From: Candidatus Melainabacteria bacterium
GTDB taxonomy: Bacteria > Cyanobacteriota > Vampirovibrionia > Obscuribacterales > Obscuribacteraceae
Direction of reading: 5' to 3'
DNA: 64,000 nucleotides
Assembly: GCA_003151275.1 (NCBI GenBank)
Contig: PLXC01000159.1
Location: forward strand, 54,760 to 118,759
Shown: one piece after another, positions 6,566 to 48,671 of the stretch
How the letters are laid out: each line of letters starts with the position of its first letter
Numbering within the stretch: the first letter of the stretch is position 1
Made by a program: the position numbers and the translations under genes
The notes under the pieces: model-generated
Seen by the model: only the letters and a program-made list of their open reading frames with translations
Told to the model about the DNA's origin: nothing
Databases searched by the model: none

Positions 6566-6665
6566 TAGATCGTTGGGTACGGCGGAGACCAACGAACCTG
6601 GTCAGGGGGGAAACCCAGCAGCCATAAGTTGTAAGCTTCGGGTGTGCCCAGCGGTCTACCCTTTT
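6566..6665 (+). ncRNA. ffs: Signal recognition particle RNA, small bacterial (4.5S-like) type
   Basis: The conserved domain-IV hairpin is present. GGTCAGG (6600-6606) and AGCAGCC (6617-6623) flank a GGGGGAAACC loop region, which is the Ffh-binding symmetric/asymmetric internal loop with a GGAA-type tetraloop. The ends can pair (GGGTA 6575-6579 with TACCC 6657-6661) and are followed directly by T5, so the RNA carries its own terminator. Length is about 100 nt with no Alu domain. The RNA pairs with Ffh to target nascent membrane and secreted proteins. The exact 5' end is inferred from the -10 box. Confidence 0.92.
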
Positions 6666-22052: not shown

Positions 22053-25000
22053 ATGGCGGCACCTGAGTTTAAGCACGCTTCCGGCACCGGCTGGCAGTTT
22101 TGGATAGACCGCGGCGGTACGTTTACCGACGTAATCGGATTGTCTTGGGACGGAAAGCTGGTTACCGAAAAACTATTGTCTGAAAATGAGCATCAGTACA
22201 GTGATGCCGCTACAGCCGGAATTAGACGCATACTCGGTCTCAATCCCGGAGAACCAATACCGTCACAAGACATCGAATGCGTCAAGATTGGGACCACCGT
22301 AGCCACCAACGCACTTCTGGAGCGGAAAGGCGAACCGACGGTTTTGATCACCAACAAAGGCTTTGCTGATTGCCTGCGCATCGCGTATCAAAACAGACCT
22401 GATATTTTCGCGCGACAAATAATTCTGCCAGAACAGCTTTACTCTCATGTAGTTGAAATCGACTGCCGATACGATTTCCAGGGACGTGAACTGACGCCTC
22501 TAAATGAGCAGGAAGCGCGAAAGAAAATTAAAGCCGCGAACGAACTGGGATTTGATTCTTGTGCAATCGTCTTGATGCATAGCTATAAGTTTCCGGACCA
22601 TGAACGCAGGTTACAAGAAATCGCATATTCTGTTGGTTTCACTCAAGTTTCAGCCTCTCATGAAATCAGTCCGCTAGTGAAAATGGTCGGCAGAGGTGAC
22701 ACATCAGTCGCTGACGCATATCTATCTCCAATCTTAAAACGGTATGTAGATCAACTTCAAAATGAGCTGCCTGGGGTTCGTTTGCTATTTATGCAATCGA
22801 ATGGCGGTTTGGCGGACGCAGCGCATTTCCGCGGCAAGGATAGTTTGCTTTCTGGTCCAGCCGGCGGTGTAGTCGGCGCAGCGGCGGTGGGAACCGCAGC
22901 GGGATGCGACAACATAATTGCTTTCGATATGGGAGGCACTTCAACTGACGTATCTCATGTTTCTGGAGCTTTCGAGCGCACAACCGACGCAGTGCTGGCT
23001 GGCATCCGGATAAAAACTCCGATGATTGCAATCAACACTGTTGCAGCAGGCGGTGGTTCCATTTGTTCATTTGACGGCTTCCGCATGCGCGTCGGTCCCA
23101 GATCAGCCGGTGCAAACCCTGGGCCGGCCTGCTACGGCAATGGCGGACCGTTAACTGTCACCGATTGCAATTTACTGCTGGGCAGAATCCAACCGAAATA
23201 CTTTCCGAAAGTCTTTGGTCCAGATAACAATTCTGAAATAGACGAAACCTACGTCAAAAAATTATTCACAGAGTTATGCCATACCGTTTCATTAGCAACC
23301 GGCTCTCAGGCGACACCAGAAGTGGTGGCAGAAGGATTCTTGGGGATCGCGGTGGCAAAAATGGCGCAGGCCATAAAGCAAATCTCAATTGAAAAGGGTC
23401 ATGATTTAGCAAACTATGCACTCGTAGCATTTGGAGGGGCAGGAGGACAGCACGCCTGCCAAATTGCCGATGCTCTGGGCTTGAAAACGATTTTGATTCA
23501 TCCACTTGCCGGAGTCCTCTCCGCCTATGGCATCGGCACATCAAATATTGGATGTGTAAAAAACGAATCGATTGAACTTCCTCTCGCTGAAGAGAGTCAA
23601 AGCACAATTGCAGCGTCGCTCAAAAGACTAGCGCAAGCGTGTCAGTCCGAGCTTGCTGACCAATTAGTTTTGGCAGACAAAATAGTCACCACTGAAAAGA
23701 TTTCGTTGCGCTATCACGGTACCGATTTATCTCTCTCCGTTCCTTTCGCAAACGTTGTCGCGATGAAAGAAGATTTTGAAAGGAGACATTTTGACCGCTT
23801 TGGTTTCGTCATGAATGATAAGAACCTTGTCGTTGAGTCGATTTCAGTTGACGCTGAAGCAAAATCACCGTCACCTAAGATGGCATCAGTTGCCGATCAC
23901 ATCAGCCGAAGCAAGTTGCCGAAGTGCAATGTCTATGTCGAAAATCAATGGCAACAGATTGACTTGTGGACGAGCGAAGAAATTTCGCTTTCCTCTCAAA
24001 TTCATGGACCAGCGCTCATTGTAGACAGGATCAGTACCACAATCATTGAGAGAGGTTGGCGTGCCACACTCGACACGAGCGGTGCTCTAGTGATCACACG
24101 AGTGGGCGCAATTGAATCATCGAATCAAGCACAGGACGACTTAGAGAGGCCGAACCCGGCGCGACTCGAATTGTTCAACCATATTTTCATGTCAACGGCA
24201 GAGCAGATGGGTGCGGCATTACAAAATACCAGTCAATCGATCAACATAAAAGAACGTCTAGATTTTTCCTGCGCCATATTTGATCAACAAGGCAGACTGG
24301 TTGCAAACGCACCGCACATCCCCGTGCATTTAGGCTCGATGAGCGCGTGTGTCCAACACATCATTAAGGATCGTGCGAACACAGTTGCTAAAGGAGATGT
24401 TTACGCCTCAAATAATCCTTACGCGGGTGGCACTCATCTGCCCGACATCACTGTAGTCTCACCTGTTTTCGCGGGCGGAACAGAGCCTTGTTTTTATCTC
24501 GCTTCGCGTGGTCATCATGCAGACGTTGGCGGCATTACGCCTGGTTCCATGCCGGCCGACAGCCACACTTTGGAAGAAGAAGGTGTCGTCATCGACAACT
24601 TTCAGCTCGTTAAAGCAGGGCACTTTCGCGAAGAAGAAATTTCGAACTTGTTGACTTCATCCACATACCCCGCGCGAAATCCAGTTCAAAACATCGCCGA
24701 CTTAAAAGCGCAGATTGCCGCAAACATAAGAGGCGAGCATGCATTGCTCGCCCTATGTGAAAAATATGGACTGCAGACGGTGCATCGCTATATGCGTTTC
24801 GTGCAGGAGAATGCTGAACTGGCCGTGAGAACCGCGTTAACTCTATTGCATGACGGCACATTCACTTGCACCATGGATGGCGGGGCGATAATAAAAGTGT
24901 CCATCAAAATAGACCGTGCTAACCATTCTGCGACCATCGACTTTGAGGGAACCTCAGGTCAACTGACCTCAAACATGAATGCCCCCAAATCGATTACAAA

Positions 25001-25676
25001 CGCCGCCGTCATGTACGTTTTTCGAACATTGATCGATGATGACATTCCGCTCAATGATGGATTTCTTGTACCGCTAACCATTTCAATTCCAGTCCATAGT
25101 TTCCTAAATCCAAAGTTTCCTGCAGCGATTGTGGCCGGCAACGTAGAAACATCTCAGCAGATCACTGACGCTCTCTACGGCGCCCTCGGTGTTATGGCAG
25201 CTTCGCAAGGAACGATGAATAACTTCACTTTTGGCAACGCTCAATATCAATACTATGAAACCATATCTGGTGGCTCAGGTGCTGGACCGGACTTCGACGG
25301 AACAAGCGCCGTGCAAACGAACATGACTAACTCCAGACTAACCGATCCCGAGATTTTGGAAATGCGCTTTCCTGTAATCCTGGAAGAATTTTCTATCAGA
25401 CCTCAGAGCGGCGGGCGCGGCAGGCGTAAAGGTGGTGACGGGGTGATTCGCAAAATCAAATTCTGCCAAGACATGAGCGCATCCATTCTTTCCCAACGTC
25501 GGTCGGTATCGCCATTTGGCATGGATGGTGGCGGCGATGCAGACCCAGGCTCAAATTACGTAATCCGGCGCGATGGAGAGAGGATCGACCTCGGTGCGAC
25601 GGCAACAATAGAGCTTTATGCAGGTGACACGTTTATTATCCAAACGCCCGGGGGTGGCGGATTCGGCGCCGAGTAA
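22053..25676 (+). CDS. 5-oxoprolinase / hydantoinase (fused HyuA-HyuB)
   Basis: The 1207 aa join both subunits of the oxoprolinase family. The HyuA part (about 1-690) has [43 protein letters not shown] and [11 protein letters not shown], the ATP-binding actin-like fold. The HyuB part (about 705-1207) has [43 protein letters not shown] and the Gly-rich end TPGGGGFG. It most likely opens 5-oxoproline to glutamate with ATP; hydantoin substrates are an alternative. The length equals eukaryotic-type single-chain oxoprolinases. It stands alone in its transcription unit. Confidence 0.93.
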
Positions 25677-26633: not shown

Positions 26634-27425
26634 ATGGCTGAGCTAAGCACTAAGACTGTTGGTACAACTCACCAACCAATGCTGGCAAATAGAGTCATCC
26701 TGGTGACTGGCGCGAGTCGTGGCATCGGCGCAGCTACGGCAAAACTGCTGGCATCGCACGGGGCAAAGGTTATCGTCAACTACAACAAAAGCGTTCGCGA
26801 AGCAAACGCGGTTGTAGAGCACATTAGAGAGCATGGTGGGAACGCTGTGGCGATCAAAGCCGATGTCAACAGTGAGTCCGAAGTGAAAAAAATGATCGAA
26901 ACTTCCGTCGAACATTACAGCTTTATTGACACCACAATATTGAACGCCTCACCCAGTTTTTCAATCAAATCATTCGTCGACTACAATTGGCAAGATTTCG
27001 AGAAAAAACTTGTTGGCGAACTCAAGTCTGCTTTTTTGATCTGCAAAGAAGTGGTGCCACCAATGGTGCAAAAACGAAAAGGAAACATTATTGCGATAAG
27101 TACCGGGCTTTCACGACATCCCGTTTCTGGATTCATCGCCCACTCCAGTGCCAAAGCGGCCCTGGATGCTTTCGTACGCAGCCTGGCATTCGAGCTTGGG
27201 CCGCACGGAATTCGTGTCAACGTGATCGCTCCTGGATTAGTCGAAACGGATGCCACCAAATTCATGTCTTCCGAGCAGAAGGAGGCGTTTGCGCAGGCAG
27301 CTCCGTTAAGACGAGTGGCGATGCCTGAAGACATCGCTGGCGCTGTTCTTCTTCTTGCTTCCAGCGAAGCGCGTTTCATTACTGGTGCCTACTTGCCCGT
27401 CAATGGTGGCACACAAATGGTGTAG
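26634..27425 (+). CDS. Short-chain dehydrogenase/reductase (FabG-like) with altered active site
   Basis: The 263 aa form a classical SDR Rossmann fold: VTGASRGIGAATAKLL (24-39), acidic ADVNSES, NAS (104-106), catalytic-region Ser156, and the C-terminal NVIAPGLVETDATKF and GAYLPVNGG. The usual YxxxK reads HSSAK: the catalytic Tyr is His170 while Lys174 is kept. It would reduce or oxidise carbonyl/hydroxyl groups with NAD(P)H, but the Tyr-to-His change makes activity uncertain. GAGGTGA precedes the ATG. The stop is 15 bp ahead of the rtcB gene, so the two may share a transcript. Confidence 0.9.
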   Translation: MAELSTKTVGTTHQPMLANRVILVTGASRGIGAATAKLLASHGAKVIVNYNKSVREANAVVEHIREHGGNAVAIKADVNSESEVKKMIETSVEHYSFIDTTILNASPSFSIKSFVDYNWQDFEKKLVGELKSAFLICKEVVPPMVQKRKGNIIAISTGLSRHPVSGFIAHSSAKAALDAFVRSLAFELGPHGIRVNVIAPGLVETDATKFMSSEQKEAFAQAAPLRRVAMPEDIAGAVLLLASSEARFITGAYLPVNGGTQMV

Positions 27426-30317: not shown

Positions 30318-31340
30318 TTAATGAGAATGACGGTGGTGCAGATCGGGCAAGTGTGGATGAGAATGCTCCACCGGTTCATGATCATGCCAGTGAGAATGAC
30401 GCAAAGAAGCTGGCTGCCCTTCATGCTTGTGGTTGTGATGCCCGTCGTCATGACCGTGTTCGTGCGTGTGCGACATAATCTCATGAGCGTGAGCGTGTTC
30501 ATGACGGTCACGAAGCAAAACAGCTATTGACGCGACCAACATTGCAGCGGCCACCAGCTGCACAGAAGTGAGCCGTTCACCTAATGTCAGGGCGGCGATA
30601 CCGATTCCCCAAAATGGTGCACTGGCAAAGATACTCTGCGACCGTGTTGCGCCAAGTTTTTGGGCTGCCGCTATGTAACATGTAATACTCACACCATAGC
30701 AAAGCACACCAATAATGATGGCACTCAACAACGTAGTTGGTGAAGCATGCAGTGGCTGCATCACACAGCCCAAGGCGAAGTTAACACCTCCGGCCATCAA
30801 TCCTTTCCAGAATGTGAATTGCACTGGCGAGATGCCGTCGATCACCGCTGTAAGATTGTTGTCGAGCGACCACAGCAAACAAGCCGTCGCTGCGGCTGCC
30901 GCTGCAATCCACCCAGCCGTTCCAGCTCCGGCTGACAGCAGGAGTGCCGCGGCTGTTGTGCCGATCACGCCAATCACGCCGAGCTTGCCCAGATGCTCCT
31001 TAAAAATCAGTGCCGCCAGAACGGCGGTGAAAGGCGACTCTAGACACAAATACATCGACACTGTGGACGCAGGTGCGAGGCTAAGTGCAAACATGTAAGC
31101 AGGTGCCGCACATCCGCCGCAAATTAAGGCGCCCAGAAGCTTAGCTCGACTCGATTTCGGCACACCGAAGCGCTTGCCTTTGTGCTGCCGTAAGACCAGC
31201 GGCAACGAGCCCAATGAAGCACCAAGATACAAAAGACCGGCTAGCTGAAAGGGTGAAAATGATGTTACGACAGCCTTTCCAGCAGGCGCCGAAGCCCCAA
31301 ACAATGCCGCCGAGAGCAACGCTAGAAGAACTGGATTCAA
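30318..31340 (-). CDS. EamA/DMT-family transporter with histidine-rich C-terminal tail
   Basis: 340 aa in total. Residues 1-275 hold about ten TM helices in two EamA repeats (LLALLSAALFGASAPAGKAV; LESPFTAVLAALIF; FWGIGIAALTLGERL). The last ~64 residues contain 23 histidines, including HEHAHAH, HTHEHGHDDGHHNHKH and HSHPH. This tail is very likely a metal-binding cytoplasmic extension, as in zinc or nickel transporters, and suggests a metal-linked efflux or regulation role unlike the usual metabolite exporters. It starts with TTG 31340, with GAGGAAG inside the end of the upstream gene (2-bp gap), so it is translationally coupled to 31343-32233. Confidence 0.88.
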   Translation of the reverse strand: MNPVLLALLSAALFGASAPAGKAVVTSFSPFQLAGLLYLGASLGSLPLVLRQHKGKRFGVPKSSRAKLLGALICGGCAAPAYMFALSLAPASTVSMYLCLESPFTAVLAALIFKEHLGKLGVIGVIGTTAAALLLSAGAGTAGWIAAAAAATACLLWSLDNNLTAVIDGISPVQFTFWKGLMAGGVNFALGCVMQPLHASPTTLLSAIIIGVLCYGVSITCYIAAAQKLGATRSQSIFASAPFWGIGIAALTLGERLTSVQLVAAAMLVASIAVLLRDRHEHAHAHEIMSHTHEHGHDDGHHNHKHEGQPASLRHSHWHDHEPVEHSHPHLPDLHHRHSH

Positions 31341-31342
31341 AG

Positions 31343-32233
31343 CTAGAGCTTCCTCATCAGGCGCATAATCTCTAAAAGCTCACGCGACATCAGACCAATC
31401 GCCGCCCGCAGATCGTTCAGCATCGCTACTCGATTATCAAGCATATCAATCGAGACTTGATGGGTCTGAGCAACCGTTCCGGACAATAGCGCGATGCGTC
31501 TTTGTCCCTCTTTGCTCTTTGGCGGAGGGATACGCTTAATTTGAACCCAGCGTTGGATAAGGATATCTCGCCGTGACAGCCCCGTGCCCCCGGGGATGGG
31601 CTCATTAAGAAAATTCCAAACCGGTGCTGGAATGTCTTTGTCTTTTGTCGTGCTCAAGCAAAAAAATCTGGCGAGCATGTTTGGATCAATGCTGGAGCTT
31701 CTCTTTTCGCCACTTGACTGCTTCAGTGCGTATGTTGAGATACCGGTTGAAATAGCACCAGCTGCAACTTCCAGAATGTTTCCAGCATTCTGATAAGGAG
31801 TAGTTGTTCCGACTTGAACTCCTGAGCCAATCATTGCAAATGCGCCGCCGCTGACAAAGTTCGTAATGTTGTTCAAACGAATTGCCTTGTCTCTGTGCGA
31901 TTCGAGCACGTTCTTCAGCTCACCAGAAATTGTCATCTCATCGTCAACGTCCGAGATAACATCTCTGGTTTCAAGAAATGTAGTCAAGAGAATTTCGGTC
32001 ATCTCTTGCTTCACATACAGAAAATGGGGGTCTCGTTTTTTCGCCTCGTCTGACGGCGATTTATCTCGCAATTCTTGGAGTTGCAAGATATAAGGCGTAA
32101 TGCCAATGTCTTTGGCGACCTCACGTGCAGCGGGCGACAGCGTGCTGAGCAAATCTGCTGCATTACATTTTTGAGGTCCTAGTGCTAATCCCAAAAAAAG
32201 GATAAGAACTGCTGTACGTTGCCAACTTTTCAT
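31343..32233 (-). CDS. Secreted hypothetical protein
   Basis: A 296 aa protein with a signal peptide (RTAVLILFLGLALGPQKCNA, cut near NAADLL). The mature part is helical: a charged N-terminal half with EEM-type segments, a Gly/Ala-rich middle (NFVSGGAFAMIGSG; ILEVAAGAISTGIS) that may insert in a membrane, then a basic helix-rich end. No family is recognised. It is first gene of a two-gene unit with the His-tail transporter, so the two may work together. The promoter region it shares with the PKS operon contains several palindromes. Confidence 0.7.
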   Translation of the reverse strand: MKSWQRTAVLILFLGLALGPQKCNAADLLSTLSPAAREVAKDIGITPYILQLQELRDKSPSDEAKKRDPHFLYVKQEMTEILLTTFLETRDVISDVDDEMTISGELKNVLESHRDKAIRLNNITNFVSGGAFAMIGSGVQVGTTTPYQNAGNILEVAAGAISTGISTYALKQSSGEKRSSSIDPNMLARFFCLSTTKDKDIPAPVWNFLNEPIPGGTGLSRRDILIQRWVQIKRIPPPKSKEGQRRIALLSGTVAQTHQVSIDMLDNRVAMLNDLRAAIGLMSRELLEIMRLMRKL

Positions 32234-32264
32234 ATCGCCGAAACCTAAGAAAACGCTCAGAATT

Positions 32265-32297
32265 GGTCACCGGTTGTGACAACACGAACATTGTCAC
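32265..32297. promoter_or_regulatory. Operator-like GTGAC half-sites in a divergent promoter
   Basis: GTCAC (32266-32270) and GTGAC (32276-32280) are inverted with 5-base spacing. GTGACAA (32276-32282) and TTGTCAC (32291-32297) form a second perfect inverted pair with 8-base spacing. They lie between the divergent genes starting at 32233 and 32459 and resemble overlapping sites for a dimeric repressor. Confidence 0.5.
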
Positions 32298-32349
32298 CAT
32301 AACAATAGAAAAAATCAAATGCTAGGTAGTGTAACCTGGCGAATGACGG

Positions 32350-32380
32350 GCTTTACGTAGTACACTTGTCTACGTAAAGC
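32350..32380. promoter_or_regulatory. Perfect 11-bp inverted repeat upstream of the type III PKS operon
   Basis: GCTTTACGTAG (32350-32360) and CTACGTAAAGC (32370-32380) are exact reverse complements around a 9-base spacer, 79 bases ahead of the first operon gene. No T-run follows, so an operator or an RNA hairpin is more likely than a terminator. Confidence 0.6.
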
Positions 32381-32458
32381 TGAAGCTGCAGAACAACTTC
32401 CGAAAAGTTGCGAGCTCAGCAATCCGCACTCTTGTACGAAGGTTCAAGGAATTGATCG

Positions 32459-33160
32459 ATGCTTACTCGTAAGCGTGTAGCCGAACTTATGGACGATCCA
32501 GCGCTCGACGATACGAGTCATATAGAAGCTTTGCGTGGTCTAGAGAGACTCAACCTGGTCAGTACGAGCGCTTCTTTGCTCTGGTCTCAAATCAAGCCAT
32601 TGGCGAAACAAAATCTGGCAAAACCGTTGCGCATTCTCGACATTGCCACCGGAGGCGGTGACATTCCAGTTTCGTTATACAAAACTGCAGAACTGGACCA
32701 GGTCAAACTCGAGATCGTGGGAGCGGATATAAGCCCGACTTCAATAAAATATTCGACTAAGTATGCGCAACAGAAGCAAGCAACAGTGGACTTCATTGAA
32801 TTGGACGTTTTGAAAGATGAATTACCTGGCGGCTTCGATGTCGTAATGACCTCTCTTTTCACGCACCATCTTGATCCACCTGAAGTGATCGCTTTGCTCG
32901 TGAAGATGGCGAACTCAGCATCTCAAATGGTGCTCGTCAATGACTTGGTGCGCAGCGAAATTTCGTTTGCCTTAGTTTGGCTAGGCACCCGCTTGTTAAG
33001 CCGCTCGCCAATTGTTCAATATGATGGTCCCGTATCGGTTCAAGGTTCATTTACCGGCAAAGAATTGCAATCAATGGGTCTTAAAGCGGGACTGGACGGG
33101 TGCTCTGTAAAATCGTGTCCTCCGTGCCGACAACTTTTGATTTGGAGGCGCAATGCTTGA
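32459..33160 (+). CDS. Class I SAM-dependent methyltransferase of the PKS operon
   Basis: A 233 aa UbiE/Methyltransf_25-like enzyme: an N-terminal helical cap (1-55, RKRVAELMDDPALD), motif I RILDIATGGGDIPVSL, an acidic end at IVGADIS, and motif FDVVMTSLFTHHL. The C-terminal basic/Cys stretch KSCPPCRQLLIWRR is conserved-looking. It likely methylates the ring or hydroxyl of the polyketide made by the third gene. AAGGA precedes the start by 8 bases. The stop overlaps the next gene by 8 bp. Confidence 0.88.
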   Translation: MLTRKRVAELMDDPALDDTSHIEALRGLERLNLVSTSASLLWSQIKPLAKQNLAKPLRILDIATGGGDIPVSLYKTAELDQVKLEIVGADISPTSIKYSTKYAQQKQATVDFIELDVLKDELPGGFDVVMTSLFTHHLDPPEVIALLVKMANSASQMVLVNDLVRSEISFALVWLGTRLLSRSPIVQYDGPVSVQGSFTGKELQSMGLKAGLDGCSVKSCPPCRQLLIWRRNA

Positions 33161-34337
33161 GGGCGAAGCTTCATTGAAACAGATTTCGCAAGACTGGGAT
33201 CTAGTAATAATTGGCGCGGGTCCTGCCGGCGCATTCGCGGCATACCTGTTGGCTCAATTTTCGTCTAAGATTTTGCTAGTGGACAAATCACACTTTCCGC
33301 GCCCGAAGGTTTGCGGTTGTTGCATCAACAATGCGGCAATTAGTCTGCTTGAGTCGAATTCCCTGGCGCATGTGTTGGCAGATCAAGGAGCTGTTCAACT
33401 CAAACAACTATGCTTGTTCGATGCCACTCAGAGAGCCAGAATAAATTTACCAAGGGGCGTTTCGCTCTCGAGAAATCGATTTGATTCGGAGTTGGTAAAA
33501 GCAGCCATGGCAAGGGGTGTAACCTTCGTGCCCGGCGTTTCAGCTCAGGTTCTCGAGGCGTTCCCTGATCACAGATCCGTGCAGCTTCGCGCAAGTGATT
33601 GTGAGCAGAACGTAAATGCAAAAGTCGTTTTAGTCGCAGATGGGTTGAACGGCCGTTCTCTTGAACGTCATCCCCACTTCAACTTTGTCACCGAGACAAA
33701 CTCGAGATTTGGCTGTGGCACAATTATGCAGGACGCTCCTGAATTTTATCAAGCAGGCCAAATATACATGGCGTGCGCCTCCGGAGGGTATGTCGGATTG
33801 GTGCGACTGGAAGATGGAAGAGTGGATGTTGCCGCGGCAATCGATCGCAATTTTTCGCGAGCAAACGCGGGTCCTGCAAAAGCTGCTGCCAAAATCTTGC
33901 AGCTAAGTAACTTACCTGTGCCAGCTGCACTGATCGATTCTCACTGGCTCGGCACTGAAGCTCTTACTCGCAAGCGTAAACACATTGCAGGCGAGAGAAT
34001 CTTCATCCTGGGCGATGCATGCGGATACGCGGAGCCCTTCACCGGCGAGGGAATAGCGTGGGCGCTAACATCCGCCGCAGGCGTAGTCGACCTTGTCCTA
34101 TCGGCGATGATCCAATGGTCACCATCATTGATCACTAACTGGCAGCAAAAACACAAAGAGATGATTCAAGTAAGGCAAGATCGAAGCAAAACAATTGCTC
34201 TGGGATTGCGGAATGATCAGCTGCGCCATTTTGCCATGCCAATCATTTCGTCTTTTCCCTTTATTGCAACCTCGATCATAAACCTTATTGCGGAACCGAC
34301 CGTCGTTCGACATGACAAACCACAAAATGCAGCCTGA
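33153..34337 (+). CDS. FAD-dependent oxidoreductase (geranylgeranyl reductase/hydroxylase-like)
   Basis: A 394 aa flavoprotein. FAD motif LVIIGAGPAGAFAAYLL (residues 18-34), the KVCGCCINNAA segment typical of the geranylgeranyl-reductase group, VVLVADGLNGRS, and the second FAD motif FILGDACGYAEPFTGEGI are all visible. It could reduce an alkyl chain or hydroxylate an aromatic ring. Between a methyltransferase and a type III PKS it fits the tailoring hydroxylase slot seen in the Streptomyces srsABC phenolic lipid pathway. It starts at ATG 33153, GGAGG four bases upstream. Confidence 0.9.
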   Translation: MLEGEASLKQISQDWDLVIIGAGPAGAFAAYLLAQFSSKILLVDKSHFPRPKVCGCCINNAAISLLESNSLAHVLADQGAVQLKQLCLFDATQRARINLPRGVSLSRNRFDSELVKAAMARGVTFVPGVSAQVLEAFPDHRSVQLRASDCEQNVNAKVVLVADGLNGRSLERHPHFNFVTETNSRFGCGTIMQDAPEFYQAGQIYMACASGGYVGLVRLEDGRVDVAAAIDRNFSRANAGPAKAAAKILQLSNLPVPAALIDSHWLGTEALTRKRKHIAGERIFILGDACGYAEPFTGEGIAWALTSAAGVVDLVLSAMIQWSPSLITNWQQKHKEMIQVRQDRSKTIALGLRNDQLRHFAMPIISSFPFIATSIINLIAEPTVVRHDKPQNAA

Positions 34338-34358
34338 ATCTCAGCAAGGACGTAACAA

Positions 34359-35435
34359 GTGTCATCTTCAATAATTGGCTTAGGCACGGCATTACCAACG
34401 AATTCGGTAAGCCAAATCGAATCTTATCGCCTCGCTAAGATTCTTTGCTGCCACACGGATAAACAAGAGCGTGTGCTGGAACAGGTTTATAAAAAATCTG
34501 GAATCCAAAGTCGTTCCACAATATTACATAAAAAGTCTGATCAATTTGTGGGCGAGAATTTTTTTCGAAAGCCTCTAACCATCTCTGATACAGGGCCTTC
34601 GACTGCTGAGCGCATGGCTGTGTACGAACAGGAAGTGGAACCCTTAGCTTCACAGGCATGTCGTGGTGCTCTTTATCAATCTGGAATCGACGCAGAAACA
34701 ATCACTCATTTAGTGACCGTTTCTTGCACAGGTTTTTATGCGCCTGGATTTGATCTGCAATTGTTTAAGTCGTTGTCCCTTAAACCCACCGTTAGACGCA
34801 CCCACATTGGCTTCATGGGCTGCCACGGCGCACTCAATGGTTTACGAGTGGCAAACAGTCTGTGCGCTGAAAACTCGAATAATGTTGTACTTATTTGTGC
34901 AACCGAGCTTTGTTCAATGCACTTTCAGTACGGCTGGTCAAAGGAATCTCTTGTTTCCAATTCTCTTTTTGCCGATGGATCGGCTGCATTGTTGATGAGA
35001 AGCGGTTCGAACAGTCTTAATTACGCAGACGAAATTTCGTACGTGGTTCCAGATTCGGAGGAGGCAATGAGTTGGCGAATTGGCGACGCAGGATTTATTA
35101 TGAGTCTTGCCAACTACGTCCCTGAGCTAATCCGTAATCACTTGCCGCCGTTGATGACAAACTGGCTATCGTCAAACGGGCTAGCAATGAGCGATGTGAA
35201 GGGCTGGGCAGTACATCCTGGCGGCCCAAGGATTTTGGATGCCGTGGAGAATGCCTTAAAACTGGATGCCGAAGCCTTATCCGCCTCCAGAGCAATCTTG
35301 GCTGAGTGTGGCAATATGTCATCACCGACGGTGCTTTTCATACTGCAGCGACTGCTCGCGATCGGCGATAAATTGCCCTGTGTAATTTTAGGCTTTGGTC
35401 CTGGTCTAACAGTCGAAGCGGCCCTCATCCGTTAA
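34359..35435 (+). CDS. Type III polyketide synthase (chalcone/stilbene synthase family)
   Basis: A 358 aa thiolase-fold homodimeric synthase. The catalytic triad is visible: Cys155 in GFMGCHGALNGL, His286 in WAVHPGGPRIL and Asn319 in AECGNMSSPTVLF. The Gly-rich CoA-binding end LGFGPGLTVEA is present. It extends an acyl-CoA starter with malonyl-CoA and cyclises it to alkylresorcinol, alkylpyrone or similar. The start is GTG 34359, 21 bp after the flavoprotein stop, with AAGGA upstream. It is the last gene of the operon and is followed by a palindromic repeat array. Confidence 0.95.
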   Translation: MSSSIIGLGTALPTNSVSQIESYRLAKILCCHTDKQERVLEQVYKKSGIQSRSTILHKKSDQFVGENFFRKPLTISDTGPSTAERMAVYEQEVEPLASQACRGALYQSGIDAETITHLVTVSCTGFYAPGFDLQLFKSLSLKPTVRRTHIGFMGCHGALNGLRVANSLCAENSNNVVLICATELCSMHFQYGWSKESLVSNSLFADGSAALLMRSGSNSLNYADEISYVVPDSEEAMSWRIGDAGFIMSLANYVPELIRNHLPPLMTNWLSSNGLAMSDVKGWAVHPGGPRILDAVENALKLDAEALSASRAILAECGNMSSPTVLFILQRLLAIGDKLPCVILGFGPGLTVEAALIR

Positions 35436-35436
35436 A

Positions 35437-35557
35437 CCTGGCAGCGCCGGCACCCTGCCGGCATCTAACCCGAAAGCGCCATCTAACCTGAGAGCACCAG
35501 CAGCTAACCTGGGAGCGCCAGCATCCGCTGGCATCTAGCCTAAGAGCGCCGCGCGAC
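35437..35557. repeat. Array of degenerate palindromic repeats, copy group 2
   Basis: About five degenerate units follow the PKS stop. Each has GAGAGC/GGCAGC-type starts and AGCGCC, some with complete palindromes (GCCGGC-ACCCT-GCCGGC at about 35447-35463; GCCAGC-ATCC-GCTGGC near 35517-35532), separated by CATCTAAC-like joins. The same element recurs at 14598-14625 and 50793-50822. Confidence 0.7.
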
Positions 35558-35685
35558 TCTTGAGAAAGTTTAAAAAGATGTGAAGTGGTCGAAGTTGTTG
35601 CCGAATGTTCATGTGACTTTTCGGTGCCGCCAAGGATGTTAGTGCTCCCAGGTATAATTGGCAGCCGGATTCTCTTGGTGAACAG

Positions 35686-36966
35686 ATGGGCAGAGTTGTA
35701 GTTGGCATGATAGGGCTGGGAACGGTCGGCACAGGTGTTGTGCGCCTCCTTGAGCAACAACGTCACTTGACGTTGAAGAAAGTAGCAGTTAAAGAACTGC
35801 AGAAAGAGCGGGCAGTTCGTCCGACATGTCCTGTAACGACGGATGTTTCTGAGGTCATTGACGACCCTGAAATCGAGATTTTGATCGAGGTGATGGGCGG
35901 TGAGCAGCCCGCGCTGGATTACATCAAACGAGCAATAGAAAAGAGAAAGCACATTGTCACAGCCAATAAAGAAGTGCTCGCCAAACATGGACCTGAGTTA
36001 TTCCAAATGGCTAAGCAAAAAGGTGTGGCCATCTTTTTCGAGGCGTCCGTTGCAGGCGGCGTGCCTCTGATTTCGACGATCAGCAAAGGGCTGGAAGCGA
36101 ACAAATTCTCCTGTGTCACCGGAATTTTAAACGGCACAACCAATTTCATTCTTTCAAAAATGGAAGAAGATAAAGAGAGCTACGCTGGAGCGCTTGAGAA
36201 AGCACAATCACTTGGATTCGCGGAATCCGACCCAACAAACGATGTTGACGGATACGACGTCGCTTACAAGCTTTCAATTTTGTCGGCGCTTTCATATCAA
36301 CGATTTGCAAAACCCGGCGAGATTTACCGTGAAGGAATTCGCAACGTCTCTTCAGAAGACATAGCTCAAGCGCAAGAATTTGGCTACCGGATCAAGCTCG
36401 TTGGCAGCACGCGTCGAGCCGATGGCGGAAAAATTGACGTGCGCGTCCATCCAATGATGGTTCCCCTCAACCACCCGCTAGCGTCAGTCTCGGGGTCGAA
36501 CAATGGCATTCTAGTTTCCGGCGATGCTGTCGGCGAAATCGTTATGGTCGGTCCAGGCGCCGGACAAATGCCCACAGCGTCCGCAATCGTGGGCGATACC
36601 ATCAACCTGGCGAGCGCCTTGCAATTGCCTGATTTCGCGTCATACTTCCAGCCTGAAATTGAACCGGAGTGGGCAACCACGGCGGACCCTGGGGAATGGA
36701 GTTGTCCTTATTATTTGCGATTCGCTGTGCATGATACCCCCGGTGTCATCGGGCGCATCGGCACCATATTCGGTGCGCATAAAATCAGCATTCAAAGCAT
36801 CTTCCAACGAGGCGTTGAAGAATCAGGAGCACGCATCGTCATCTTCACGCACGAAGTAAAGAATTCTCAAATGGAGAGCGCGCTTGCAGAACTCAAAGAA
36901 TGCGACTTCTTACGCGAGCTCGAAAGTCGCATTCGAATTTTCCAAACGGCAGGTCGCAATGGCTAA
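35686..36966 (+). CDS. hom: Homoserine dehydrogenase
   Basis: Reduces aspartate semialdehyde to homoserine with NAD(P)H. The 426 aa show the Rossmann start [16 protein letters not shown], the catalytic-domain features [36 protein letters not shown] and [15 protein letters not shown], and a C-terminal ACT domain (about 345-420, [18 protein letters not shown]) for feedback control by threonine. It is the first gene of hom-thrC-thrB-lysC. Its stop lies inside the thrC start region with an 8-bp overlap. Confidence 0.97.
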
Positions 36967-46799: not shown

Positions 46800-48671
46800 T
46801 CACCGTTCTTTCAAAACTTGCTGAGTCACTTTTGTATCCCGCAAATCTCCAAACTTAGCTAAGTGCACGTCAGCAGCGCTGATCTTTGAAGAAACTATCA
46901 CCGCTCCTGAAAAATCGGCATGGCCCAGGCTAATGCATGAAATGGTGCTGCTCGTTAATTTAAAGGTAGCAACAACGTCAGGCATAGATGACAAAAACTT
47001 GCAGTTAGTCCACACACCTCCTATAAATTGCGCTCCATTGAGTTTAGAAGTCTTAAAGGAGACACCGTCCTGACCGTACTTGATGGAATTCAACCCAGCT
47101 TTGCAATTATCAAACTTCGCATTCTTTAAGTTGGATTCGTCGAAAGATATCATGACCAATTTACTGTTTTTAAAACTGCTAGATGACATCGAGCAATCTT
47201 TGAAATGAACGTTGAACATCGAACAGTCCTCAAAGTCAGTTCCAGTCAAATTCGAGTTCGAAAAAGTCAAATCATCGATCTTGCATGATTTAAAGCGAGC
47301 GCCTTGCAGTCGAGCGTTATTAATTTCCGGGACGGATATTGTGAGATTGTAGATGTCGGCTCCCGCGAGATTTACACCTTTTCGCAGTGCCTCATTGACG
47401 GCTGAAGGCAGATCAGCGGCATTGCTCGAGTATAAAATTCGCCCGTATCTGTCTTTGATTTGTTGTTTCACAGCAGCGGAGCCGGTGGGAATTTCGCTGA
47501 CCGAAGGTGGATTATTGATAAGCACGACACTCGCAGGGAATGCCCTATCGGTTTCAAAATAACGATACATCCAAGTTTGCCAAAGAACAAAAAGCATGCA
47601 AACCCCAAGTAAAATTGAGCCACTAACTAACAATTTATTGACGAGGGATGCCCAGCCTTTTGATTGAGCAAGGAATGGTTGATCACAGCTTGCAACCCTG
47701 TCTAGATCGCGCTTCAGCTCACTAACGGTCTGATATCGATCAGCGGGCCCCTTCCGCAAAGCATGTGCCACAATTGACTGCATACCGTTCACAAGTTTGC
47801 GATTACTGTGCCTAAGCACTACATTCGGTGTCTTACTGTCAACCGGCTTGAACGACAGTTGAAATGGATTCTCAGCCTGGAGTGGCGGTTTTCCAACTAA
47901 CGCTTCAAACATCAAGCATCCCAGAGAGTAGACGTCGGTACGTTCATCAAGCGGAAGCCCCATCGCCTGCTCTGGACTCAGATAAGAGGGGCTGCGAAAT
48001 AATTCACCGGCTCGGTTTAGTCTGCCATCATCTGTGGTGCGTCCCAAAGTTTGGGCAATGTCAAAGCCAACCACTTTGACGATTTCAGCATCGATGTTAT
48101 TTTTAGTTATTAGAATGCTGTTCGGATTTACATCCCGCAGAACAATACCCTTGGAACGCGCATAGATGAATGCTTCACAAAGCTGAGCAGCAATATCTAA
48201 CACTCTGGAGATGTTCAGAAAACCGTGAGACCGGATAGTCTCGCGAAGGCTAACGCCATCAATGAAGTCCATGATGATATAGGGATCGCCGTTAGCCAAG
48301 ATTCCTTGACCATATATTGCAACCAAGTTTTCGTGCGTTAAATCACTAGCAGCTTTCGCTTGTTGTTCGAATTCTTTGAGGGCTGAATCTCCCAGCAACT
48401 CGGAATGAAAAACTTTGATGGCGAATACCTTGCCCAATAACTTGTGCTTTGCTCTATAGACCTCACCCACGCCGCCCTGTCCAATCAAATTGAGCAGCTC
48501 GTACTCACCGAAATCTTGCTCCATTGCGTGAGATGCTGGCGACACTTCCGACTCTGCTGTTACTAAAATTTGAGGGTTAGTGGCGTCCGAAACAGACGAA
48601 GAGTCTGCTTCGCCAACGTTTAGTCGCGGGTTCGCATGCGGCGCTGTTCGTTTAAAAGGTCCGAATTTCAT
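46800..48671 (-). CDS. Ser/Thr-kinase-like protein with pentapeptide repeats; catalytic motifs degenerate
   Basis: 623 aa: disordered N-terminus (1-55), kinase fold (57-325), TM (346-366), short extracytoplasmic stem, then pentapeptide-type repeats (about 435-600, e.g. ANLKNAKFDNC-like units such as SNLTGTDFEDCS and SNLKNAKFDNCK). Kept: IGQGGVGEVYRAKH and Lys86 in FAIKV. Changed: HRD is LRD (178-180), the DxKxxN set reads Asp180-Asn182-Ser185, and DFG is GFD (202-204), so the Mg-binding Asp and Asn are lost. It is likely a pseudokinase receptor. SYLSPEQ and DVYSLG remain. It is divergent from the gene at 49087. Confidence 0.93.
   Translation of the reverse strand: MKFGPFKRTAPHANPRLNVGEADSSSVSDATNPQILVTAESEVSPASHAMEQDFGEYELLNLIGQGGVGEVYRAKHKLLGKVFAIKVFHSELLGDSALKEFEQQAKAASDLTHENLVAIYGQGILANGDPYIIMDFIDGVSLRETIRSHGFLNISRVLDIAAQLCEAFIYARSKGIVLRDVNPNSILITKNNIDAEIVKVVGFDIAQTLGRTTDDGRLNRAGELFRSPSYLSPEQAMGLPLDERTDVYSLGCLMFEALVGKPPLQAENPFQLSFKPVDSKTPNVVLRHSNRKLVNGMQSIVAHALRKGPADRYQTVSELKRDLDRVASCDQPFLAQSKGWASLVNKLLVSGSILLGVCMLFVLWQTWMYRYFETDRAFPASVVLINNPPSVSEIPTGSAAVKQQIKDRYGRILYSSNAADLPSAVNEALRKGVNLAGADIYNLTISVPEINNARLQGARFKSCKIDDLTFSNSNLTGTDFEDCSMFNVHFKDCSMSSSSFKNSKLVMISFDESNLKNAKFDNCKAGLNSIKYGQDGVSFKTSKLNGAQFIGGVWTNCKFLSSMPDVVATFKLTSSTISCISLGHADFSGAVIVSSKISAADVHLAKFGDLRDTKVTQQVLKER

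Follow-up and report, generated by a model that had tools for sequence, protein, structure and literature searches.

We report a three-gene operon in a Candidatus Melainabacteria genome that is very probably of the hierridin type (hidABC-like) and would make alkylresorcinols. It lies in a stretch of 64,000 nucleotides (hereafter the window; contig PLXC01000159.1 of assembly GCA_003151275.1, positions 54,760 to 118,759), where the open reading frame (ORF) list and the sequence give three plus-strand ORFs in one tight unit, encoding a methyltransferase (MT), a flavin adenine dinucleotide (FAD)-dependent oxidoreductase, and a type III polyketide synthase (PKS). We place the unit in the hidABC family because gene order, sequence, and phylogeny agree. 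The operon is real, well explained, and ordinary in kind, and its machinery is already known; what is noteworthy is its occurrence in Melainabacteria/Obscuribacterales, its likely separate acquisition there, and a possible exchange within the operon. A known phenolic-lipid pathway would thereby be extended to this line. The features of the operon are as follows:

32459..33160, plus strand: S-adenosylmethionine (SAM)-dependent methyltransferase, 233 aa, putative HidA counterpart (Pfam/NCBIfam matches; 93% identity to locus L001)
33153..34337, plus strand: FAD-dependent oxidoreductase, 394 aa, geranylgeranyl (GG)-reductase/flavoprotein-monooxygenase superfamily, putative HidB counterpart
34359..35435, plus strand: type III polyketide synthase, 358 aa, GTG start, putative HidC counterpart (Pfam/NCBIfam matches and alignments)
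32234..32458, no strand: intergenic region between the divergent ORF296 and the MT gene, presumed to hold the operon promoter

The nearest related locus, L001, belongs to a Candidatus Melainabacteria metagenome-assembled genome (MAG), with identities of 79% in the PKS, 93% in the MT, and 91% in a neighboring EamA transporter, and five of the six best loci (L001, L002, L003, L005, and L006) are from Melainabacteria or Obscuribacter. The initial annotation, made from the sequence alone, had considered a non-photosynthetic relative of cyanobacteria as a possible host, and a Melainabacteria-type relative is what these loci indicate. The lineage is non-photosynthetic. We take the host's class and order to be those of the L001 genome (Vampirovibrionia, Obscuribacterales).

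Operon organization

The compactness that the initial annotation had described is confirmed on the sequence: the MT and FAD genes overlap by 8 bp (33153-33160), as they also do in L001 and locus L113, and 21 bp (34338-34358) separate the FAD gene from the PKS gene. Its coordinates and numbering are likewise correct, except that the coding unit begins at 32459 and not at 32350, positions 32350-32458 being 5' of the first start codon. A neighborhood search for the trio, which it had suggested, covered 80 genome-contig loci kept out of 115 confirmed. MT, FAD, and PKS genes are adjacent in this order in 50 of them; seven have the genes on the same strand in another arrangement, six are cut short, four carry MT and FAD elsewhere on the opposite strand, and 13 are without one or both by tblastn. 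With this arrangement shared by 50 of the 80 loci, it is not due to chance. By analogy with relatives, the three genes in the window are probably co-transcribed, the kept 8-bp overlap being an indirect sign of this. A promoter consensus scan found no site in 32234..32458, and the scan was at chance level overall and uninformative (three promoter-like and three terminator-like sites, where shuffled sequence averaged 3.3 and 4.4). Rfam and tRNA scans returned nothing at the operon.

In four planctomycete loci (L049, L056, L064, and L065), the PKS gene lies about 2.5 kb from the MT-FAD pair; in L049, the one of the four that was inspected, two opposite-strand ORFs stand between them.

Relation to known operons

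Judged by order and sequence, the closest known system is hidABC together with its planctomycete counterpart, and not srsABC of Streptomyces. The hidABC operon of Cyanobium sp. LEGE 06113 has the same three enzyme types in the same MT-FAD-PKS order (PMC8086630; PMC10896814). The likeness to srsABC noted in the initial annotation stands for gene content: srsABC/pkq operons also join a PKS, a methyltransferase, and a flavin hydroxylase. Their order differs, however, with the PKS gene first and methyltransferase and hydroxylase downstream in srsABC (PMC9927152), and we rejected srsABC as a model on this ground (MT-FAD-PKS here versus PKS-MT-hydroxylase). Our trees hold no srsABC/pkq sequences.

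The planctomycete operon is identical in order to cyanobacterial hidABC, whose product hierridin B is a hydroxylated, O-methylated pentadecylresorcinol, and 58 of 96 planctomycete type III PKS genes occur in MT-oxidoreductase-PKS order (PMC10896814). Six planctomycete PKSs were expressed in C. glutamicum in the same study: those of G. maris and R. baltica, from full operons, gave alkylresorcinols, as did those of S. maiorica (a two-gene version without the oxidoreductase) and S. ferox (another operon), and two operon-less PKSs gave no product. The G. maris mtr and fdo pair added one methyl group to the ring, probably on carbon (PMC10896814). The window PKS averages 47% identity to 56 planctomycete rows of our alignment, the Gimesia PKSs (L016, L025, and L029) being 48% identical, and 45% to 18 picocyanobacterial-type rows (six Synechococcus loci plus 12 genomes of their class in one clade with them). 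It differs from the planctomycete operons in host phylum and, as shown below, in clade, and from hidABC in clade, in host class, and in its place beside the homoserine dehydrogenase gene (hom), where the operon also stands in the window's close relatives.

Other cassettes are more distant. The MT, FAD, and PKS proteins group with hid-type rows versus the cassettes of Deinococcus, Psychrobacter, and Sphingobium, the picocyanobacterial clade standing here for HidC itself (QBC65480, outside the set). The Deinococcus and Sphingobium cassettes are plasmid-borne and ordered PKS-MT-FAD, and that of Psychrobacter has MT and FAD on the opposite strand. None of the three cassette FAD proteins gave a tblastn match to the window's FAD protein; those of Sphingobium and Psychrobacter match the GG-reductase superfamily, and that of Deinococcus is of the UbiH/rifampin-monooxygenase type. 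The Azotobacter ArsB/ArsC enzymes are also long-chain type III PKSs, and are encoded in a different operon.

Family and active-site evidence

The PKS scores 103.4 and 91.1 bits with Chal_sti_synt_N and Chal_sti_synt_C (cut-off 27) versus 27.7 and 37.0 bits with ACP_syn_III and ACP_syn_III_C (Pfam). A KASIII (FabH) identity was rejected, the FabH models reaching 43.8 bits (cut-off 292.1) and 49.7 bits (cut-off 249) in NCBIfam. These scores side with the initial annotation, which had called the protein a type III PKS and named the KASIII branch as the case against it. The best NCBIfam match is DpgA, the 3,5-dihydroxyphenylacetyl-CoA synthase (NF042429, 154.7 bits over the whole length), but this lies far below the cut-off of 425, and the PKS gene has no glycopeptide-type neighbors. 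Cys155, His286, and Asn319, reported as intact and correctly numbered from the start, do not vary across the 124 aligned PKS rows. The structure alignment omits L022, whose reference contained a stop.

Aligned to chalcone synthase (CHS)-type chains and relatives, Trp239 stands at the place of CHS Gly256 and Met248 at that of Phe265, CHS position numbers that are in part our assumption. In Azotobacter, ArsB Trp281 and ArsC Gly284 form the resorcinol/pyrone switch, and ArsC Met293 follows nine residues further (PMC6274091). Because Trp239 and Met248 are also nine residues apart, Trp239 is the likely counterpart of ArsB Trp281, the resorcinol-type residue; four solved-structure searches did not list ArsC within their best 60 rows, and the equivalence runs through the CHS alignment and the spacing. 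The Met at the Phe265 place is conserved throughout the HidC clade (PMC8086630), and Trp and Met are both kept in 20/20 host-class, 56/56 planctomycete, and 18/18 picocyanobacterial-type rows. The active-site residues speak, though not conclusively, for ring closure to a resorcinol by C2-C7 aldol condensation.

The MT matches Methyltransf_25 (40.2 bits) and Ubie_methyltran (22.1 bits) in Pfam, and NF004851 at 205.5 bits, below the cut-off of 243; it had no PDB match at 1e-3. Residues H136, H137, D162, R165, and P222 belong to the set conserved in 97% or more of the 87 hid-type rows. The FAD protein matches FAD_binding_3 (56.6 bits, Pfam), has the conserved motifs PRxKxCGxC (P49-C57) and GDxxxYxEPxTGEG (G287-G300), and gave 13 PDB matches, the best at 4.8e-11.

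The halogenases Bmp2, PltA, and CndH are among the structural matches of the FAD protein and raised a halogenase role for it. We take the hallmark of flavin-dependent halogenases to be a conserved catalytic Lys together with WxWxIP. In the 87 rows, Lys is not among the five commonest residues anywhere at positions 72-89 and there is no WxWxIP at 205-221, the presumed places of the two motifs; for lack of the conserved Lys there, we provisionally set the role aside. Since PMC8086630 describes hierridin C chlorination as unexplained, such activity may nevertheless exist.

Phylogeny and acquisition

In a concatenated three-protein FastTree of 92 rows, the 19 host-class rows form one clade (support 1.0) and the 18 picocyanobacterial-type rows another (0.997), both among mainly planctomycete rows. 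The host-class clade has an SH-aLRT of 99.8 in IQ-TREE with 92 rows and of 99.4 with 42 rows. Each single-gene tree also keeps the host's class as one clade (MT 0.991, FAD 0.78, PKS 0.994), and the three genes therefore appear to share their history at this depth. The trees were built without L004, L005, L006, and L014 (duplicates of L125, L115, L120, and L126), FAD proteins shorter than 320 aa, PKSs shorter than 330 aa, and the MT and FAD hits of L036, L190, L191, and L194. The FAD proteins of L134-L136, which tblastn had missed, were added by annotation, and all other MT and FAD rows are the top tblastn match of their locus, whether or not the genes adjoin.

These trees suggest two separate entries, one into the host's class and one into the picocyanobacteria, which we regard as likely but not certain on moderate evidence. 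Vertical inheritance from a common ancestor of Cyanobacteriia and the host's class would explain why both classes have the operon, and forcing the two together in the 92-row set (LG+G4) costs 68.5 log-likelihood units and is rejected only at p-AU 0.048. With a C20 site-mixture model on 42 rows, however, the same union (log-likelihood lower by 66.1) is rejected at p-AU 0.00076, a value that may be too small since the hypothesis was tested after the first tree had been seen and the 42 rows were chosen with that tree in view. In the 42-row tree, moreover, the two classes group with different, mostly planctomycete rows: three further rows, two of them planctomycete, join the picocyanobacterial ones (SH-aLRT 97), and six, five of them planctomycete, join those of the host's class (SH-aLRT 99). 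As the operon is also patchy in the host's order (18/53 genomes), we consider vertical descent very improbable. The Obscuribacterales line probably gained the operon by horizontal transfer, with a source within the operon's mainly planctomycete diversity and separately from the picocyanobacteria. The tree evidence, with one strong and one borderline test, would then place the operon in two cyanobacterial classes that do not share it by descent, and it bears on the published question of transfer between planctomycetes and cyanobacteria (PMC10896814).

On plasmid PALBO1 of Paludisphaera borealis (L133), a trio stands next to genes for a sensor kinase and a response regulator; in the trees it falls with the picocyanobacterial-type clade (0.87 in FastTree, and within the set supported at 97 in the 42-row tree).

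Predicted pathway and alternatives

By analogy with the characterized relatives, the PKS would load a long-chain acyl thioester from primary fatty-acid synthesis, add three malonyl-CoA, and cyclize the resulting tetraketide to a 5-alkylresorcinol through a decarboxylating C2-C7 aldol condensation. The MT would then C- or O-methylate the ring, on which the FAD enzyme would also act, most likely as a hydroxylase. The end product would be a methylated alkylresorcinol or an alkylhydroquinone/quinone lipid; we predict a methylated, perhaps hydroxylated, long-chain alkylresorcinol. This points to a lipid to seek in Obscuribacterales enrichments. The initial annotation had noted that no acyl-activating enzyme is nearby, and there is indeed none among the 17 Pfam-scanned proteins between 25.7 and 43.9 kb of the window, the trio included, where the sole fatty-acid-type match is a short-chain dehydrogenase/reductase (SDR) at 26634-27425. 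This absence is not remarkable, since the described three-gene operon is also without such a gene (PMC10896814).

Several points weigh against this assignment. Chemistry, product, and co-transcription are carried over from relatives, and separate acquisition depends on one strong and one borderline test. Trp and Met occur in nearly every aligned row, hid-type or not, and thus discriminate weakly; the Met in particular is a weak likeness to HidC. The enzyme PKS11, an alpha-pyrone synthase by name, also has Trp at the Trp239 place. The FAD protein scores 111.7 bits with the GG-reductase superfamily model TIGR02032, below its cut-off of 158.8, its structural matches are a mix of monooxygenases, halogenases, and reductase-type proteins, and the role of the FAD enzyme is left unresolved where the planctomycete work treats it (PMC10896814).

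One variant of the alkylresorcinol-operon explanation assigns the product a role: an alkylbenzoquinone serving as an alternative membrane electron carrier (a polyketide quinone), as in Streptomyces MNU77 and M. smegmatis. In its favor, the enzyme types are the same three, and actinomycete three-gene operons make such quinones (PMC9927152). But those operons are PKS-first and outside our trees, and the hierridins are known as phenol ethers (PMC10896814), so that we hold this variant to be unlikely.

The initial annotation had left the choice between a phenolic-lipid and a pyrone pathway open. A phenolic lipid is very likely and the residues lean to a resorcinol, although PKS11 shares the Trp. 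If the PKS were an alkylpyrone synthase, the trio would yield a methylated or oxidized long-chain pyrone, and the pyrone synthases PKS18 and PKS11 are indeed among the nearest solved structures. However, the Trp239/Met248 pair fits the HidC clade, and at these places PKS18 has Leu/Cys and PKS11 Trp/Leu in our reading of the alignments; the operon relatives of known product make resorcinols (PMC10896814); and a flavin hydroxylase with a ring methyltransferase would suit a phenol better. A pyrone product is accordingly most improbable.

Distribution in the host's class

MT, FAD, and PKS genes are adjacent in order in 18 of 19 host-class loci, the 19th ending at a contig end, and in all 12 picocyanobacterial-type loci fetched. 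A PKS search of 289 genomes of the host's class matched 109 at E<=0.001 and 27 at 1e-20; the other 82 matches, none better than 9.6e-10, are probably FabH-like. The trio-type PKS is present in 19 genomes, of which 18 have the complete trio and one is truncated at a contig end. Within the host's order, 18 of 53 genomes have the PKS at E<=1e-60, and a 19th (G126) has a hit split in two, which falls short of the threshold. Trio genomes range from 2.8 to 9.2 Mb, and genomes of 6-8 Mb in the same order are without a PKS match (G078, G105, G130, G136, and others); because of these, the distribution reads as patchy, allowing for incomplete MAGs. In the class of a Synechococcus locus, 51/291 genomes match the PKS at 1e-40; among 20 of these examined, 12 have the three genes adjacent in order, five have them in another order, and three are without a partner.

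Our literature search, with subscription papers, preprints, and supplements outside it, found no type III PKS, polyketide, or alkylresorcinol pathway reported for Melainabacteria, Obscuribacterales, or Vampirovibrionia; the Melainabacteria passage of PMC8406957 concerns CylC-like halogenases.

In another genome of the same order (G075; L114, 8437-8930), tblastn found only C-terminal PKS pieces, of which the best shares 73% identity with the window PKS; the 18 kb examined there held no MT, FAD, or hom gene, and the locus looks like an operon remnant. Other host-class genomes carry divergent type III PKSs (L186-L194, 25-38% identical). Next to one of these, L191, the opposite strand encodes a methyltransferase and a flavoprotein; another, L194, is in a genome (G101) that also carries the trio.

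A divergence step inside the operon

Comparison of the window with L001 gives a synonymous divergence (dS) of 0.59-0.92 for four upstream genes (one partial) and 0.61 for the MT gene, versus 1.62 for the FAD and 1.87 for the PKS gene. At four-fold sites the identities are 0.694 (DGC), 0.574 (EamA), and 0.689 (MT) versus 0.411 (FAD) and 0.392 (PKS). An identity difference of this size arose in none of 20000 permutations, whether MT was taken alone or with two upstream genes, and the best break lies near 33089, in the 3' end of the MT gene, with a high-divergence stretch from 33089 to 35435 against 6733-9077 of L001. Because synonymous divergence jumps near the MT/FAD border, the simplest reading suggests that one lineage swapped its FAD-PKS half for a related allele; the window and L001 stay sisters in the MT, FAD, and PKS trees.

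It is a real possibility, though, that the jump merely reflects uneven rates or a misjoined metagenome contig, without recombination. The MAG contig of L001 breaks off 56 bp past the PKS stop codon, so that its far side is beyond checking; FAD and PKS show the highest amino-acid divergence of all genes compared against L113, where synonymous sites are mostly saturated; and the upstream EamA gene falls between MT and the FAD-PKS half at four-fold sites. Against this stand the size of the jump at these sites, which no permutation matched, and the position of the best break. If the exchange did occur, it would suggest a product changing under selection. A further idea, that a lineage-specific methylated alkylquinone works as an additional electron carrier in the membrane or as a lipid of resting stages, with exchanges of the FAD-PKS half changing the chemotype as the operon stays, we consider quite doubtful.

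Flanking genes and other features of the window

The following features lie outside the unit:

30318..31340, minus strand: EamA transporter, left flank (Pfam; same neighbor in L001 and L113)
31343..32233, minus strand: ORF296 (296 aa), left flank, divergent from the operon (neighbor also in L001 and L113)
35436..35685, no strand: intergenic region between the PKS and homoserine dehydrogenase genes, with degenerate 18- and 21-bp tandem repeats at 35462-35523
35686..36966, plus strand: homoserine dehydrogenase (hom), marking the operon's place (Pfam/NCBIfam; same place in L113, 93% identical)

The block EamA-ORF296-MT-FAD-PKS is identical in arrangement in the window, L001, and L113, and continues into hom in the window and L113. 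ORF296 had no Pfam or NCBIfam match; its counterpart beside the operon in L001 is shorter (208 aa), and one is also kept in L113. The EamA transporter has, by eye, a long histidine-rich C-terminal tail that is kept in L001 and L113, a possible link to metals. On the right, homoserine dehydrogenase is followed by a pyridoxal phosphate (PLP)-dependent enzyme, a GHMP kinase, and an aspartokinase-type protein, which by order and family would belong to the threonine pathway.

Further away, the window encodes a bacterial small signal recognition particle (SRP) RNA at 6567-6660 (RF00169, 57.7 bits), a single ORF of 1207 aa at 22053-25676 in which hydantoinase A and B halves are fused (oxoprolinase-like), and a protein kinase with C-terminal pentapeptide repeats at 46800-48671.

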